From: Panaeolus papilionaceus
Taxonomy: Eukaryota > Basidiomycota > Agaricomycetes > Agaricales
Assembly (NCBI GenBank): GCA_015501605.1
Contig: JADNRZ010000029.1
Coordinates: 310,001-374,000, forward strand
DNA: 64,000 bases
Direction: 5' to 3'
The position numbers and the translations under genes were made by a program. The notes under the pieces were generated by a model. That model saw only the letters and a program-made list of their open reading frames with translations, was not told the DNA's origin and did no database searches. Shown in pieces: positions 388 through 48,762 of this stretch (position 1 is the first letter of the stretch; each line of letters opens with the position of its first letter).

Positions 388-3041
388 CTTCAATGTAATT
401 AGGAGGCAGCGATAGTTACCACCATTTTCTGAACGATAGGCCAAAATTGACAGCAGTGATGTGCCGACTCGGGCTTGGGCTGACAGCCCGGCCTTGGGCT
501 GGCTGAAGGTGGCTCTGGCTTTGATGCACGCCAGAATTTCGAGTCAGGGAAATCGTTGCTGTTTCTCCTCAGATGAATTATGTACGGATTTTAATTTGGA
601 CTATGTACATAGCATGAAGACACAAGAGGCGTACTAGTAGCGTAGTTACCCCGAGTCCGAGTCTGATTATGGCGAGGGAGGATAACGGCATCCCGACACC
701 TCTTCACACATAACGTTCTTCGACATGGTTTATACTGAAATTCTCTATTCAATCTCTTTGAAATCACAAAGCCACAGTAATTTTTATGTAACAGTGCACG
801 CTATGTTACGAAATATGACCTACCTGGAGTATGTATATATTGCCCGCACCCTGTCTGTAGTTTAAACGACAAGGTCGGACAGGGACTGCACATACATAAT
901 CATTCAATGAACTCGAATCCCCATTCAGAAAGCACAGAGTTGGACATGGAGATTGTATTCCTCAGGAACCCGAGCGAAGGGTGCCAGCAGATGCTATTCA
1001 TTAATTAAAGAAGGAATGGGGAGATGAAAGGGGGCCGGGATGGACAGGTCGGGACACGACAGACAGACGACAGGGAACGACATGAGTGACCAATACCCGG
1101 CAAGTCAGGAGTGGTTATATCAGCGTTTACAATATATGTGTTCTGTGCACTTCGAACTAAGACGACGTGGTCTGGCTGGCTGAACGGGTGATCCTTCTGT
1201 ATGATGGTTAATTTAATTCAGATAACGAATGTTCGAATGCGTTGGGCTTCTGATGTCAATGCTTGCTTATTGAGATCACATCCGGGGAATCAGAGGGAAA
1301 TGTAATAATTAACATTTTCATCGAATCGCGGTAGAAGATTTGATGATTTACACCAGCTACGTAGGTGGGAGGGCCTGAGTAGGCTTTAACGTGGTCATAC
1401 AGGCACTGTACCTCTGTCAGCGTGAGGTTAACATTAAAAGTGGAGCGTGCCTCGGGTTTCGCAGTACGTAGCGGTGCAGGCTCCTGGAGTGGATCGACAA
1501 AATAAGAAGGAGCTGGCGAGGGTGTCCATGATCCCGTCATCAGACTTTGCTTTGTACCCATTCGAGATTGCGGAAGGCATGTTCATTTGGTCAATTGATG
1601 GCGGTCACAAGGGACTTCCGAATATGAACAAACTGAGGGTCCCTTTCTCAGTTTAACCTCTGAGATCAGAAAAAGTCTTGCAAGCATCGTGAACGTCAGG
1701 GTTTCGAGTATAAGGAGCGACTCCAATTGAACTTCAATCAAGCCTCACAGGCAAAATTCAATTCAAATCATGGTCATGAGCAACTTATTCAAAGTACATA
1801 GTGATGGCTTCTATAATATATGATGGATAGCGGGGCAGGCGAGGACAGGCGGGGAGGTCGAGGAAAGCAATATGGTGCTGCAAGTAATCACACGCAATCC
1901 TCAAAAAGGATCATGCATCACGTCTAGCCACCTCTGAATTGACATGGGCCTCTAATCTTGCTTTTATCCAATAGCCACATGGCATCAGCCGAACCCCTTC
2001 ATGATGTGAGAACAATCCTTAACGGGCGTACCGAGAGACGGATTTAAAGACATCGAAATTACACTGACCTCTCAAGAATGGGTAATAACCATGTTTTGGC
2101 ACGAAATACAGTCTCAAAACTTCAGTCCCACGAGCCCACACCCAAAAGCTAGAGAACAGCGGGTGCTTGTTTTCCCTTCGACTCCAATGCTTGATATCCA
2201 CTTAACCACTCCTCGGCACTCGACCAATAACACTCGGCACATGATTACAGATCTCTCAATAGTACCCAATCACTCATAAATGCCCCGCCCCGACCGTGGT
2301 GCCCGCTGCCGTTCCGTTAATTGACGCTGTCAGTGTCATGTGTGGGCCAATCGGAATCCTCATTTCATGCCAATCCAATTATATCCTCTGCGATGAGTTC
2401 CCAAAAGCCTCTTGCACACTTTCTCCGCAAAGGTCAAAGAGCCGTCAAATGAAACGGAACGATCGGATGCAATGAGTGAATGTATCAAACTAATACAATT
2501 TAATTAGCCATTGAATTGGTCAATAAAGTATGTGCCTCCTAGATAATCTCTTGATAGGATGTAAGAGTAGGTGATTGCACCGACTTGGTGGTGCAATTTG
2601 AACAGAATTGAACGGTGACTTGTGTTCTCCGCATCTAGTGAGTTGACTTGCTCGGTTTCCAGATAAGCCTCAAATCAAATGTGAAAAAGTGGCAAGAATG
2701 ACACTGATAGACCTCAGTTCCCTAAGAGCCCATTCCTTCGCTTCCGTACTTTCCCAAGTGGAGTGGGTACAAGACACGAATATGTCGCAGTGCGTGAAAA
2801 TCCTCACCCAAAGTACAAAAACCGCACTGATCTTCGAATCCTTTCCATCAGATACGCGCATATTTCGGCATCACGAGAGCGGAATAACCATAGTTGTAAC
2901 AATGGCCATAATTTACCAATTTTTTTTTTGACGTCGAAGGTCTTCGCTTCTGATCATCTTTTCATCTGTTCCCTCCAAAGTCCCAATCCACGTCTGAAAG
3001 AGCACAAAGTAAGGAAAGAAAAAAAAAGGTGTGATATTTGA
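388..3041. other. Gene-poor stretch with no supported gene
   Basis: No recognisable protein family is seen on either strand. The only ORF of note is minus strand 1561-1256 (101 codons with a real ATG), which has no motif I know; part of an unrecognised gene cannot be excluded. The interval just downstream of the potassium channel stop (2880-3040) has a poly-T and a poly-A run typical of 3' flanks. Confidence 0.4.
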
Positions 3042-5671
3042 TCATGATTCGGCATAATTAGCGTCCAGAACCGCCTCAAGCCTCCAACAAACCCGCTCAA
3101 TCAGCCACTCAGTCTCGGTCAACTTACTGAACAGCGGACCGTTGTCGCTCAGCCAGGTCCATTCATCCTCGTCAGCAATCCTTTGACGTCGGCCTTCAAA
3201 CGCCTGAGCATTTATAGCAGCGTCGTGATCCATAGAGGGTCGAGAGTGTTGAGAATGGGAACCAGACTTTGTGACAACTTGCTCCAATGGCGCAATGAGG
3301 ACACATGTCCGAAGATCAATCTGCCCACCACTGACAGCGGGTCCCTGGGTTTTCGCAGTAGATGGCCATTTGTGCAGTAATTCAAGAAAGTAGACCCATT
3401 CTTTCCAAGAATATCGCCTAGGTGGACTGTCACCTAAATCGTTTGACAGATCGCCAACAGCACGAGATAGTGCTATAGCGAGGTTTTGGTGGGTGTCAGA
3501 ATACTGTCTCTGTTCGTGCTTGGGGATTACTGCGGCCGATTGACCCTGGGTACCATTTGAAGTCGGGGATGTCGCATTGTCTTGATGAGGGTGCACGGAG
3601 GCAGACGAGACGGCGTAATTGGATGTTGGGCTATTGACATCGTATCGAGAGGGTTCGAGTTTTGAAGGGTTGTGATGAAAGGTATATTTACGCCTCGTGA
3701 TGATGTGCTCTCTTCTGAAAGGGTTTCTGCTGGTCGAAATTGGTTGTATATGTCGCTCGGGAAGAATGGTCCACTGTCCTAGCCAAGTCGAAGCATCACG
3801 AATCATAATGCCGACCGTATCACCCATGGCTCCGATAAATACAGTCATCGTGGGGACGGCGATAAGACTCCATGCCACAAAGAACGGCTTTCCAGACGGT
3901 GACGTAGGATAATAGTCGCCATATCCAACGGTCAGAAGGGACGTATAGGTGAAATAAAGAGAAGTCGGATATGTCCAATCTTGCGATTTCTTATCAGGAA
4001 GATCGTGGAGTACAAGAAGCGGTCAGATGCGGAAACCTGCGCAATAGGGTTTAGGTAAAATAACCCACCTTTTCGCACACCCAGAACATGATGGCCCCAA
4101 CGAGCCAAACCACCAAGAAAGCAAGAAAAGCGACACTGAGAGAGATGAACCTCTGCCTTTGTTCCGCCGCCGACTCAATCAACCTCATCACCTCGAACTC
4201 GGAGTGATGCCATGGCTGTAATACATCTTTCCTTATCTTCAAAGGTATGTTTCTTGGGCCAAGGGCTGTCTCATACAGGAACGTGATCACTCCCTTAATA
4301 GGGGATCGGTGCCAGGTTCTCGACTCGGAGACAAGATCGACGTGGAGCAATCGACCGCTCAACGCGGCTTCTTGGTCTCTTCTAAGTTCGCTGCCCAGTC
4401 GTTTTCGGGCTTTGCCTAGGTATCGTCTGCTGAATTTGTATTTCGCCCTCTCCACTACAAGACCCCTGACGCTCCCCACCACAAGACCGAGAAAACAGAT
4501 CCCAAATGTAATATAGGGTACTGCGACGATTCTCCCTTTTGCGGTGGTGACAGGAAAGTCCGAGCCCAGGCCGATAGTAAGCAGGGTATAATCGGCCCAA
4601 TAGAGTGCATTCTGAAAGCCCCAGTCCTGAATCGAAGAGAAGATTGCACCTCCTATCCCCAGATAGATAATGAACGCCATTGTTTGCAGCATCAACGTAC
4701 GCTGGGACGATGTTAATGTTGCAAAAGATGGCGGATACGCGTGGAATTGGTAAGTGCCGAGAAAGTTCCATAGCAGCAGCGTTGAGATTATCGCGTAGAA
4801 TATGCACGAGATCAGAGCATAGTAATACGCTTGCGAGTACGCCATTTCGTCCTTAGGAATCATCTCAGTTATGATGACGGAATTTGGCTCGCTCAACGCA
4901 GTGACAGCAGTGACAAAAGGATGATGAGTAATTGTAGCGGGGACGGGAGCCGAGGGGCTTGGATGGATGGATGGGAGGTGTGTGAGCGCGATCGGGATAA
5001 GCAGTAGTATGCTGGCTATGTACCTGAGAAGTCACTTAGTGGTGGCGCCAGGCGGGTAAGCGTATAATACGAACCAGAGGGTGATGGTGATTATTTGTGC
5101 GGTGTAGTAGGGTATCCGTCTGGCGAAATTCAAAAGCAAGGCCACGTTCGCGGCACATGAGACGCCGAGAGAGCACGAGTTTAGGACTATCAACCTTCGC
5201 CAAATGAACGGAATGACTCTCATCACGATAAATTCTGAGCCACGTACCAAGCGGGATCAGGTACACGTCCACTGTTGCTCACTTGAACTCGCCAGGTCCA
5301 CGCCAAAGAGCAAACAGAGAATAAATTTGCAACAGGCCCGAACGTTCCAGCAATCAGGGGAAATGCAGTCTCCGTGAACCACCAGAACCTGGAGCAGCAC
5401 AGGTGTGAGTATCACGTATTGAATCATCTAAAGTGCGGAAGACTGACGTGGGTTGATAGATGCCGTCGTGTTCTTCAAATCTCTGCCGCTCTGCACCGTC
5501 AACTTGACCATTTGTTGTCATGTTAACGATATAACGGAGAGCTACTGAGTACTCGCGGAAAGTGGGACTGGGAAGCTGAGGGGTCTCATGCTGTCGAATT
5601 CTATCGGCCTCTGCCCTCTTGTCCTGTCCACCAAAAATTGTACCATCGACCGTTTCGACTTCTCGTTGCAT
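3042..5671 (-). CDS. TOK1: TOK-type outward-rectifying potassium channel (two-pore, eight-helix)
   Basis: Fungal TOK channels carry K+ across the plasma membrane; each chain has two pore loops. Predicted exons (minus strand) are 5671-5448, 5388-5248, 5194-5075, 5023-4069 and 3989-3042. They sum to 2,388 nt, giving 795 aa in one frame. The four introns are 59, 53, 51 and 79 nt. Pore 1 reads TLLTIGLGSDF (exon 4) and pore 2 reads SLLTVGYGDYYP (exon 5), the GLG/GYG filter pair of TOK channels. The N-terminal helices are conserved across exons 2-4: FPLIAGTFGPVANL, then DPAW/LIVLNSCSL across intron 2, then ANVALLLNFARRI. A short cytoplasmic N-terminus precedes them and a long hydrophilic, Ser-rich tail of about 250 residues follows the last helix. 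I chose the ATG at 5671 because the longer open frame upstream has no ATG. The family call is firm; the start is less certain. Confidence 0.9.
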
Positions 5672-15390: not shown

Positions 15391-15533
15391 TCTTGCGTCT
15401 TTCCGTTCGCTCGTCATCCAGAGGAGGTAGTAGCCTAGAGGCTACAGCTTGGGGGTGGAAAGAGGGCGATGGCCCGAAGACCACTGCCCCACTTCCCAGG
15501 TCAAGAGCCAATGGTCGGATGAGGATGCGCCCC
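15391..15533 (+). repeat. R1 direct repeat, copy 1 (143 bp)
   Basis: Identical by eye to 15919-16061. It begins TCTTGCGTCTTTCCG and ends GATGCGCCCC, and contains a GTAGCC/GGCTAC inverted repeat. Confidence 0.9.
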
Positions 15534-15754
15534 ACCGTGACCAATGGCTCTCTACCCCTAGGCTACCACTCGAACCTGCACAGATGAGAGAGGGTACAAT
15601 GGTTAACTTATATCTTATCACACCAAACCAAAATACCCTCATATCTAAGGGTGTGATTTGGTTGAGACTTTTTCAAGCAGAGAGAAGAGATGAACTCAGA
15701 TGGTATTAGCCGTGAATCTTCTTCCCAGGTTAGAAGGAGAGGGTGGGTGGGAAA

Positions 15755-15918
15755 AGAAATTAAAAGGATAAAGATATAGAGAGCCGAGCGAGAGACGCTG
15801 AACCGGCGAGAAAGCGAGGCGGTAAAGATAATACAGATACGGAGTGGAATGGATGGCGAGTGTTGCGGCTCGCTCACGTGACCAAGAAGAGCGATCTGTG
15901 CGAGCACAGATCTTCTCA
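15755..15918 (+). repeat. R2 direct repeat, copy 1 (164 bp)
   Basis: Identical by eye to 17694-17857. It contains a perfect hairpin at 15893-15912 (GATCTGTGC stem, GA loop, GCACAGATC) that stops 6 nt before the unit boundary. Confidence 0.9.
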
Positions 15919-16061
15919 TCTTGCGTCTTTCCGTTCGCTCGTCATCCAGAGGAGGTAGTAGCCTAGAGGCTACAGCTTGGGGGTGGAAAGAGGGCGATGG
16001 CCCGAAGACCACTGCCCCACTTCCCAGGTCAAGAGCCAATGGTCGGATGAGGATGCGCCCC
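15919..16061 (+). repeat. R1 direct repeat, copy 2 (143 bp)
   Basis: Second copy of 15391-15533, beginning directly after R2 copy 1. Confidence 0.9.
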
Positions 16062-16195
16062 CAAAGCGAGCAAGGCCGCCCAGCCGATGACGAACATTGG
16101 CTCGCCCCAAACGGCGGGTGAGAGAAGCGTACCTAATAGCCTATATGCCACATAGCTTGTCTGTGGACCAACAAGCAGGTATAAAAAACCCATGC

Positions 16196-16843
16196 AGCGA
16201 GATGTTAGGATCGCTAGTGGGTGTGTAAACCCAGGTGCACGATGTCAGACATCACGAGGTGTGTAAAACCCCGAGGGACCCGTTAGAGTCATGAGATAAT
16301 AGGGTGTGTAAACCAAAGGCGAAACGTTAGAATCGCAGGGGTGTGTAAACCCCGACAGGTGTGTAAACCTGTGAAAAATGGGTGTGTAAACCCAGACGCG
16401 AGACGTTAGACATCGCGGAGGTGTGTAAACCTCGAATTAAAGGGGTGTGTAAACCCAGACGCGAGACGTTAGACATCGCGGAGGTGTGTAAACCTCAAGT
16501 TAAAAGGGTGTGTAAACCCAGTTGCGAAACGTTAGAATCGCGGGGGTGTGTAAACCCCAATGGGTGTGTAAACCCGGCTGACGACATGTTAAAGTCGCAG
16601 AAGGTGGTGATAACCACCGAGTAATTGGGTATGTAAACCCAAGCGCGAGACGTTAGAATCGCAGGAGTGGTGGTGACCACTCCAAGGGGTGTGTAAACCC
16701 GCCCCACGACACATTAAGAGTCATGAAGAAGTGGTGTTAACCGCGTAATGGGTGTGTAAACCACAGGGGACCCGTTAGAGTCATAGGAATGGTGTTAACC
16801 ATAGGTATGGGTGTGTAAACCCAAAGGACCCGTTAGAGTCATG
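16196..16843. repeat. Array of alternating short hairpins with variable, compensated stems
   Basis: Two kinds of imperfect palindrome alternate for about 650 bp. Type A has the core GTGTGTAAAC (14 exact copies, plus variants) closed by stems that differ but stay complementary. Examples are TGGGT/ACCCA, GAGGT/ACCTC, GGGGT/ACCCC, ACAGGT/ACCTGT and TTGGGT/ACCCAA. Variant loops also occur with GGTGGT/ACCACC and GGAGTGGT/ACCACTCC (16664-16683). Type B has a loop around ACGTTAGA closed by AGCGA/TCGCT, GCGA/TCGC, CGAC/GTCG or GAC/GTC. Spacing is irregular, so this is not a simple satellite. A further hairpin, GCTTGT/ACAAGC, lies just before it (16155-16176). I know no named family with this structure. 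Confidence 0.85.
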
Positions 16844-17693
16844 ATAGGCCATGGCGAATCCCCCCGATCGACACGCCAGCATCAAACAGAGGTGATAATC
16901 ACATATTGGTGGGCATGTGGACCGGTGGTTTTGATGTTAGCTGACGCGCTGGGCGCAGACAGTTTCGCATCCAAAGAGAGATCCGGTTGTGTTGGAGGGT
17001 TTGAGAGGTAGAAGAGGGAGGATACGAGGAAGAATAGCTGATGGCGAGATGTGGTGAATGGATCATTGGATAGTGATAAAGACAGGGTGTGAAGAGTGGG
17101 GACGAGGGAGGAATATTGGATAGCGATGGGTAGAGGTTGAGGGGGGATGTAGAGAAGGGGAGATTGTCATATGGTATTGCTTACCTGCGATTCTTGAGGT
17201 CTGGTGTAATCGGGATTGGGGTGACTGCTTGAGTTTGGCCAAGCGAGTATGAGAAGAATATGAATCGCCCTACTGACGTAGGTGGAGAAGTGTTCTGGGA
17301 GTGTCCTGCAAGGAGTGGAGGGGGAGATATGTTGCGTTATGAGGAAATGATGGGATACGCATCTGATTTTAGCCATCTCGTATTCCTGGTTGGCTTAGGG
17401 AACGGGAGTAGCGGTAGTCCTCCAGTTTTGTAGCCCGTAGCTGGTCAGGGTAGAGAGTTATGAGGATCTGGTGGTCTCATAGACCCTCCTGGCGAAGAGT
17501 CGCCCGTCAATTCTTGCATTCTTTGTTCATGAAGTTGTCAGATTGGTGAGGCGTCAGGTACAGGCTATGTTGCAGCTCAGTTAGTGTGCTGCAATGGGTG
17601 TCGACATAGATGCAGGTGATGAGCTGGCAGAGTATCAGTGTCGCCAGTGTTGTGGTGTCCCAATTAATGTCGGTCTTAGAAGGAGATGTATCC

Positions 17694-17857
17694 AGAAATT
17701 AAAAGGATAAAGATATAGAGAGCCGAGCGAGAGACGCTGAACCGGCGAGAAAGCGAGGCGGTAAAGATAATACAGATACGGAGTGGAATGGATGGCGAGT
17801 GTTGCGGCTCGCTCACGTGACCAAGAAGAGCGATCTGTGCGAGCACAGATCTTCTCA
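17694..17857 (+). repeat. R2 direct repeat, copy 2 (164 bp)
   Basis: Second copy of 15755-15918, with the same terminal hairpin at 17832-17851. Confidence 0.9.
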
Positions 17858-48127: not shown

Positions 48128-48762
48128 CTACTTAGTTTCGGGGTCGTCGTTAGTGACGGTGTCTTCCTCCCGGCGGTATCCCCGATAGCCTCCGTAACTT
48201 CCTCCCGAATTTCCATTGTAAGATCCTCCATACCCGTTATTTTCTGCCTCAGAAGCAGCATTCTCATCCCGTCGATATCCACGGTAGGAACCGCCATAGG
48301 AACCGCCATAGGAGCCACCTCCATTACTGTAGCCGTTGCTCTCTGCCTCAACAGCCTCCTCGCGGCGGTATCCACGGTAAGATCCACCTCCGTAGCCTCC
48401 ATTATTCCAACCGCCTCCATAGCCGTTGTTCTCTGCAGCGACGGAGTCCTCCTCGCGGCGGTATCCGCGATAAGATCCGCCACCATAGCCTCCGTTGTTG
48501 TATCCATTTCCATATCCATTGTTGGTCTCAGCAGCGGCTTCTACCTCCCGTCGGTCTGCCGGCACGTCGTCGTCTTCGCGCTTGTAGTACCCTCCGTACC
48601 CTCCGTTTCCTCCTTGGTATCCCTGACAAAATTGATTAGATCGATGGAATGGTATCATAAGCCTTCCACGATACCCACATTGTAGTTTTCTTCAGCCAAC
48701 ACTGAAGTGCTGAAAGCCAAAGCGAGGACGATAGAAGAGATAATAGAGGCGGTGAACTTCAT
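48128..48762 (-). CDS. Secreted Gly/Tyr-rich repeat protein with dibasic (Kex2-like) sites
   Basis: Exons are 48762-48679 and 48622-48128 (minus). They total 579 nt, giving 192 aa, with a 56-nt intron. The N-terminus is a clean signal peptide (MKFTASIISSIVLALAFS, ending SVLA). The rest is four to five imperfect repeats of about 25-35 residues rich in Asn, Gly, Tyr and Ser. Each ends in SYRGYRR or GYRGYRR followed by an acidic Glu/Asp run, with a KR and an RR in the first unit. A signal peptide plus repeats ending at dibasic sites is the layout of Kex2-processed repeat proteins, whose repeats are released as peptides in the secretory path. Function cannot be told; wall proteins, repellent-like peptides and ribosomal peptide precursors share this layout. 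It converges on ERG1. Confidence 0.75.

Follow-up and report, generated by a model that had tools for sequence, protein, structure and literature searches.

The hairpin array in the window

The window analysed here, a stretch of 64,000 nucleotides from a contig of Panaeolus papilionaceus (JADNRZ010000029.1, positions 310,001 to 374,000), contains at 16196–16843 an array in which two types of hairpin alternate. Type A hairpins carry a GTGTAA loop (read on the plus strand) and arms mostly of 4–6 bp, with variants that have other loops and arms of up to 8 bp. Type B hairpins, as read by eye, have a GTTAGA-like loop. The array had been described in an earlier note made from the letters alone (the sequence-only reading), and re-reading of 16196–16843 bore out both its coordinates and its sequences. 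Elsewhere in the window, two open reading frames on the minus strand at 3042–5031 have Ion_trans_2 (potassium channel) domains and are probably exons of one channel gene, and short tandem repeats of 12 and 93 bp lie amid long open frames at 48285–48523. No Rfam match and no tRNA were found within the window.

Hairpins were counted as perfect, non-overlapping structures with a stem of at least 4 and a loop of 4–12. By this count the 648 bp of the array hold 25 hairpins, compared with a mean of 10.9 and a maximum of 16 in dinucleotide shuffles of the array (n = 300), and a mean of 12.1 and a maximum of 18 in other 648-bp stretches of the window (n = 94). When the minimum stem is raised to 5 bp, 15 hairpins remain in the array, against maxima of 8 in the shuffles and 11 in the other stretches. 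Chance hairpins as the source of the array are excluded by this excess over the 300 shuffles. The folding z-score of the array is −6.8 on the plus strand and −6.2 on the minus strand (20 shuffles per strand), and since the two values are similar, folding cannot tell which strand matters. A TATAAAAAA box-like stretch at 16178–16187 closely precedes the array when the plus strand, here the antisense strand, is read; it could be the start of an antisense transcript.

The element that carries the array

The array lies within a non-coding element of 2,467 bp (15391–17857) with Ngaro-like split direct repeats. We infer that its sense strand is the minus strand from the coding strand of two relatives described below (L042 and L045). 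In the sense direction, with all features on the minus strand, the order is A1, an internal region with the hairpin array, B1, A2, X and B2. The terminal repeat A1 (17694–17857, 164 bp) is 100% identical to A2 (15755–15918); its sense 5′ end begins TGAGAAGATCTGTGC, and a 9-bp palindrome (GATCTGTGC/GCACAGATC) lies near that end. The part of the internal region between A1 and the array (16860–17693) has no long open reading frame. B1 (15919–16061, 143 bp) ends the long unit and is identical to B2 (15391–15533), which forms the sense 3′ end. Between A2 and B2 lies the X segment (15534–15754), common to 528-bp solo copies and 99–100% identical in L014, L023, L029–L032 and L044.

Alignment of the flanks of copies gave sharp ends for a long unit of 1,939 bp (15919–17857), which is joined head-to-tail to a short unit of 528 bp (15391–15918) lying before it. 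The two units are 100% identical over the first 143 bp and over the last 164 bp, and the same head-to-tail layout is found at two more loci, L014 and L023 (on contigs C14 and C56). The long, array-bearing unit has at least 11 copies in the genome, with differing flanks, and short units occur at at least 10 further places. Among the matches listed, the array is present in 11 of 11 long-unit copies, in one of which (L015) it is broken by an insertion. The internal region 16860–17693 gave 14 matching pieces at 11 genome places, and the motif GGGTGTGTAAACCC occurs 99 times in the 50.9-Mb genome, the reversed control pattern not at all. No target-site duplication was found among 18 insertions examined. 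The near identity of the copies implies recent movement.

Judged by these copies, the array belongs to the interior of a retrotransposon that has split direct repeats and is dispersed in the genome. A mis-assembly unique to one locus, which the sequence-only reading had named as a way for its claim to fall, is refuted by the at least 11 copies with differing flanks. That reading had the structure of the array right; it missed the mobile element that hosts the array, the minus sense strand, and the arrays of different sequence that coding relatives have at the equivalent position.

It is extremely improbable, in our judgement, that the array encodes a repetitive peptide. Long open frames do run in sense through two arrays, that of L013 (347 aa) and that of L010 (411 aa), but the longest sense stop-to-stop frame in the long unit of the window is 94 aa, and in 6 of 14 cases the spacing from one GTAAAC loop to the next is not a multiple of three. 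Peptide coding was rejected for the window element on account of these short frames and this non-triplet spacing.

Coding relatives and assignment to Ngaro

Two elements with similar ends have coding capacity. L042, whose ends are closely similar to those of the window element, consists of a 389-bp short unit followed by 5,715 bp; L045 has similar ends and the gene set of L042, arranged as a single unit. In the termini of both, the last 15 bp and the first 9 bp are identical to those of the window element and the next bases have diverged. The genes of L042 lie on the strand opposite to the plus strand of the array and comprise an acidic ORF1, a CCHC-knuckle ORF, an RT-RNase H and a tyrosine recombinase (YR). 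Two CCHC knuckles can be read by eye in the zinc-knuckle ORF; neither it nor ORF1 of L042 gave a Pfam match. A third coding lineage, L046, of which 1.5 kb was read, has a YR that is 53% identical, with one stop, and a Gag that is 34% identical.

The RT of L042 carries NWVDDF. For the proteins shown singly, RVT_1 and RVT_3 matches fall below the curated cut-offs, except for RVT_3 in homologue P0229 (23.1 bits vs a cut-off of 21.6). Among RT and YR homologues from Panaeolus and Psilocybe, some are named ‘Reverse transcriptase domain’ or ‘Tyr recombinase domain’ in UniRef and most are unnamed. The YR residues R178, K222, H298, W324 and Y332 are invariant in 24 of 24 sequences, and R301 nearly so. 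A weak Phage_integrase Pfam match is present in 15 of 41 YR homologues. The AlphaFold model of the YR homologue P0002 (mean pLDDT 76) has Cre recombinase as its first PDB fold match (E = 6e-9), the top ten matches having TM scores of 0.45–0.49 by query; PDB sequence searches with the YR, as a single sequence and as a profile, gave no match. A scan of IMG/VR with the RT alignment returned 20 pattern matches, with no relative among them. Using Pfam, no Dam methyltransferase match was found in seven L042 frames or in P0001, P0123 and P0125.

L042 has split direct repeats of 169 bp and 130 bp, both 100% identical, with the internal pair downstream of the YR. In the non-coding element L025 the corresponding repeats are 140 bp at 100% and 171 bp at 99.4%; L045 is a single unit, without split repeats, within the 6.8 kb read. 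Ngaro elements are defined in PMC4157794 by RT-RNase H, YR, the lack of a methyltransferase and split direct repeats. These features are found together in L042, so that the window element would be a non-coding Ngaro member. The assignment of L042 and L045 to Ngaro-type retrotransposons is well supported by gene content and repeat layout, and it is likewise well supported that the window element represents a non-autonomous Ngaro derivative, with similar termini and split repeats and no coding capacity. Its similar ends suggest that a coding element acts as helper and mobilises it in trans.

A second type of array and elements that lack one

A second array type consists of GGC–loop–GCC hairpins with constant stems and free loops, mostly 14–27 nt apart. 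Such arrays occur in seven elements, namely the coding L042, L045 and L046, and L025, L026, L027 and L033, where tblastn gave no match to RT, YR, Gag or ORF1 while the controls L045 and L046 matched. Of the 100 GGGC anchors in the seven GGC arrays, 95 have a GCC 3–8 bases further on. Mononucleotide shuffles would give 0.1–0.5 GGC hairpins per array, and such hairpins occur in the window at a background of 0.14 per 400 bp, with a maximum of 2. Arrays were found in all three coding lineages examined, out of 30 YR matches listed in the genome. Type A hairpins have a fixed loop and a covarying stem and GGC hairpins a fixed stem and a varying loop, so the features common to the two types are size and spacing.

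No array is present in the five 528-bp solos read (L029–L032 and L044), in the short unit L041, or in four 1.4-kb elements (L036, L038, L039 and L040). The last four correspond to the A2–X–B2 part of L025, which is its first, short unit, and with this match their apparent contradiction of the model falls away. L028, L034 and L035, which have the same kind of 5′ end, lack an array within the stretches read.

The region 500–1700 of L041, considered as a candidate hairpin cluster, proved to be a satellite: at 800–1700, some 2.5 kb away from a short Ngaro unit, the perfect palindrome TTTCCGCGGAAA recurs many times. In L010 and L013, at about 5150–5450 (array orientation), the type-A array is followed by a third hairpin-like motif (CACGAGTTATCGTG... 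GCAGAGG), and a GCAGAGG-bearing motif is also present in L026. This hints at a common ancestry of the two array types.

Position of the arrays in a predicted gag intron

With limits set by eye, the array starts 0.85–1.09 kb from the sense 5′ end in L042, L045, the window element, L026 and L013. In L042, L045 and L046 it is flanked by ORF1 on one side and by the zinc-knuckle region of Gag on the other. A predicted donor, the array and a predicted acceptor follow each other in that order in 3 of 3 coding lineages, with a phase-1 junction possible; the phase match is weak evidence because several acceptors fit. The arrays of the three coding lineages are thus predicted to sit in a gag intron. In the window element a candidate donor, cgcag/GTAAGC, which is its one strong donor-like site and is similarly placed, lies upstream of the array on the minus strand at 17179–17184 (sense position 674), and a weak candidate acceptor, TTGGTCCACAG, lies downstream of it in sense, at 16161–16171 on the same strand. 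L013 has a strong donor-like site at sense position 751; L026 has no strong donor. In P. cyanescens, the gene model P0125 gives a single protein in which Gag-RT is preceded by a SAP-type N terminus, the SAP match (Pfam E 0.0003–0.002) being below the cut-off, and P0123 resembles P0125 by eye.

A structured intronic RNA might, through intron retention, control splicing or nuclear export and not serve as a packaging label, in which case the arrays of non-coding copies would be relics or would meet a need for export. The predicted intron position in each of the three coding lineages examined speaks for this. We nevertheless regard it as unlikely, if still plausible, since the array is kept where no gag was found (in the window element and, by tblastn with the L045 control matching, in L025–L027), and, when recent copies of the window array are compared, stems vary less than the other sites.

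Paired changes in the arms of type A hairpins

According to the sequence-only reading, the two arms of a hairpin change together. For type A this was examined in 90 units, 83 of them distinct, from five arrays (the window, L010, L013, L019 and L020), units being selected by the loop and by no more than three letters of the 3′ arm. The truncated type-A array of L020 is adjoined, at 3000–4500 of that locus, by Copia- and gypsy-like retrotransposon coding fragments (by eye). Stem positions 1–3 vary little. In the pooled set, position 4 is paired in 61 of 83 units (shuffle mean 30.5) and position 5 in 41 of 83 (shuffle mean 23.3), with 0 of 5000 shuffles as high in either case; these, like the p values given below, are plain shuffle tests on units of shared ancestry, without phylogeny correction. 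All four Watson–Crick pair types are present at both positions. Position 6 shows no excess, with 17 of 83 units paired vs a shuffle mean of 20.1.

Taken alone, the window array (16 type-A units) is paired at position 4 in 13 units (shuffle mean 9.0, p = 0.01) and at position 5 in 10 (shuffle mean 5.5, p = 0.016). The strongest pairing signal comes from L013 (p = 0.0002 at position 4 and 0.004 at position 5), the corresponding values being 0.01 and 0.04 for L010, 0.005 and 0.13 for L020, and 0.10 and 0.35 for L019. Two subfamilies, with G-C or C-G at position 4, explain part of the covariation signal; within these two classes the pairing at position 5 is suggestive only (p = 0.10 and 0.075). 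The proposed joint change of type-A arms therefore stands at positions 4 and 5, in the window alone and in the five arrays pooled, by shuffle tests; for type B it continues to rest on reading by eye. The earlier suggestion that folding is maintained is supported as well, and of the roles then proposed we now favour a structured RNA.

Wobble pairs favour neither strand (10 G-T vs 14 A-C, p = 0.54; 9 vs 14, p = 0.40, with a biased filter). Together with the lack of strand preference in folding energy and the 9-bp palindrome at the element end, this would fit a role at the DNA level, with the tyrosine recombinase or a host protein bound by hairpins or cruciforms that form in cDNA while it is single-stranded or circular. 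Such a role seems to us improbable, given that the array lies about 0.9–1.1 kb from the sense 5′ terminus, in coding copies between ORF1 and Gag, and that the unit junctions are located at the termini.

Paired arms could also have a mutational origin, without selection, if strand-switching by RT in quasi-palindromes copied one arm from the other and slippage built the array. An element that presumably replicates by reverse transcription, an array segment that varies between 571 and 672 bp in ten uninterrupted copies, and wobble pairs without strand bias are all consistent with such an origin. Against it stand a pairing excess that, in the pooled set, does not extend beyond the fifth pair, the GGC arrays with their fixed stem and varying loops, and the similar place of the arrays in coding and non-coding elements, and we consider it distinctly unlikely.

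Variation among copies of the array

The ten uninterrupted copies of the window array, which are recent, were aligned, leaving out the interrupted L015. Stems make up 250 of 670 sites and contain 2 of 25 polymorphic sites (p = 0.001); after removal of 9 misaligned L023 sites, 2 of 16 variable sites are in stems (p = 0.03). Both stem changes would give G-U on the plus strand of the array and not on the sense strand.

Older copies gave mixed results, which vary with the choice of hairpins counted, and show no clear constraint. When L013 served as reference, stem changes were seen at 13 of 106 sites vs L020 and at 19 of 116 vs L010; they were about as frequent as changes elsewhere, and most were single and unpaired. 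When L020 or L010 served as reference, the counts were 0 of 52 and 4 of 48.

Unpaired stem changes in older copies and a varying number of units would be expected of a neutral, satellite-like tandem repeat inside the element, the hairpins being a by-product of its G/C-rich units. The excess of hairpins over shuffles and the covariation argue otherwise, as does the finding of two array types, different in sequence, at a similar place; a neutral repeat is accordingly very improbable in our view.

A possible label of unspliced genomic RNA

With somewhat less than even confidence, we favour the reading that the array is an internal, cis-acting part of a non-autonomous Ngaro-type retrotransposon and may label its unspliced genomic RNA. 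An array in the gag intron would be retained only by the unspliced, full-length RNA. Some protein could bind the many short hairpins of similar size and spacing, the simplest candidate being the Gag of the element, which has CCHC knuckles. The array would then act as a label by which Gag or RT selects the genomic RNA to be packaged and reverse-transcribed. Spliced mRNA without the array would be translated. Non-coding derivatives would parasitise this machinery by retaining the termini and an array, and the split repeats would let the cDNA close into a circle, which the tyrosine recombinase would insert.

The retention of an intronic array by non-coding copies would be best explained by a cis role of the unspliced RNA, and the lower variability of stems among recent copies counts for such a role. 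The wobble pairs without strand signal, the two stem changes of recent copies, which would be G-U only on the strand opposite to sense, the older copies that lose pairing and the array-less L028, L034 and L035 count against a packaging label. In some retroviruses, such as RSV, as described in PMC5035971, the packaging signal lies upstream of the donor; since signals of the RSV type precede the donor, intron placement is not diagnostic of a packaging signal.

A wider form of the proposal, possible but on balance doubtful, is that the gag introns of mushroom Ngaro elements carry an array of some 7–27 hairpins as a multivalent label of genomic RNA that is read by size and spacing and not by sequence. 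Stems and loops could then turn over freely, and gene-less elements would win by retaining or amplifying the array. To our knowledge, no cis-acting RNA signal has been mapped by which tyrosine-recombinase retrotransposons choose their genomic RNA. An array whose structure is kept despite turnover of its sequence, and which coding and gene-less copies both carry, offers a concrete candidate for such a cis signal. Its structure may also help to find Ngaro relatives that lack genes and are therefore invisible to RT or YR searches.

Comparison with known systems

If it works as proposed, the array would resemble retroviral psi in having hairpins near the 5′ part of the RNA that mark the genomic RNA for Gag. 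It would differ in consisting of many short repeated hairpins and in belonging to another element class, the likeness being one of function and not of membership. In TRIM/LARD-type deletion derivatives the termini are kept, coding capacity is lost, and mobilization presumably occurs in trans. Unlike these, the window element is of the YR type, has split direct repeats instead of LTRs and retains an elaborate array.

The present elements share with the Ngaro groups of basidiomycetes (PMC3783388 and PMC4157794) RT-RNase H and YR, with no methyltransferase found, the split direct repeats in the order A1-B1-A2-B2, the internal pair downstream of the YR and the lack of a target duplication; they differ in the extra segment X between A2 and B2 and in the hairpin array in the predicted gag intron. 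The terms ‘hairpin’, ‘tandem’ and ‘non-autonomous’ are absent from the main text of PMC3783388, and no description of such an array was found in the titles and abstract starts of open-licence literature. The class of the host element is therefore known, being of the Ngaro kind treated in PMC3783388, while for the hairpin array itself no description was found; the earlier statement that no described family resembles it holds for the array and fails for its host.

A hairpin near one end, the lack of a target duplication and head-to-tail copies are also features of Helitron-like elements. A Helitron reading was rejected: L042 encodes RT and YR, the ends are CTCA and not CTRR, and the flanks are mixed, with no A/T target preference (by eye). 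In the genome as a whole there are 18 matches to Helitron_like_N (PF14214), on contigs C8, C5, C56, C45 and others; 15 of these matches lie in open frames longer than 600 codons, and full-length Helitrons seem to be present.
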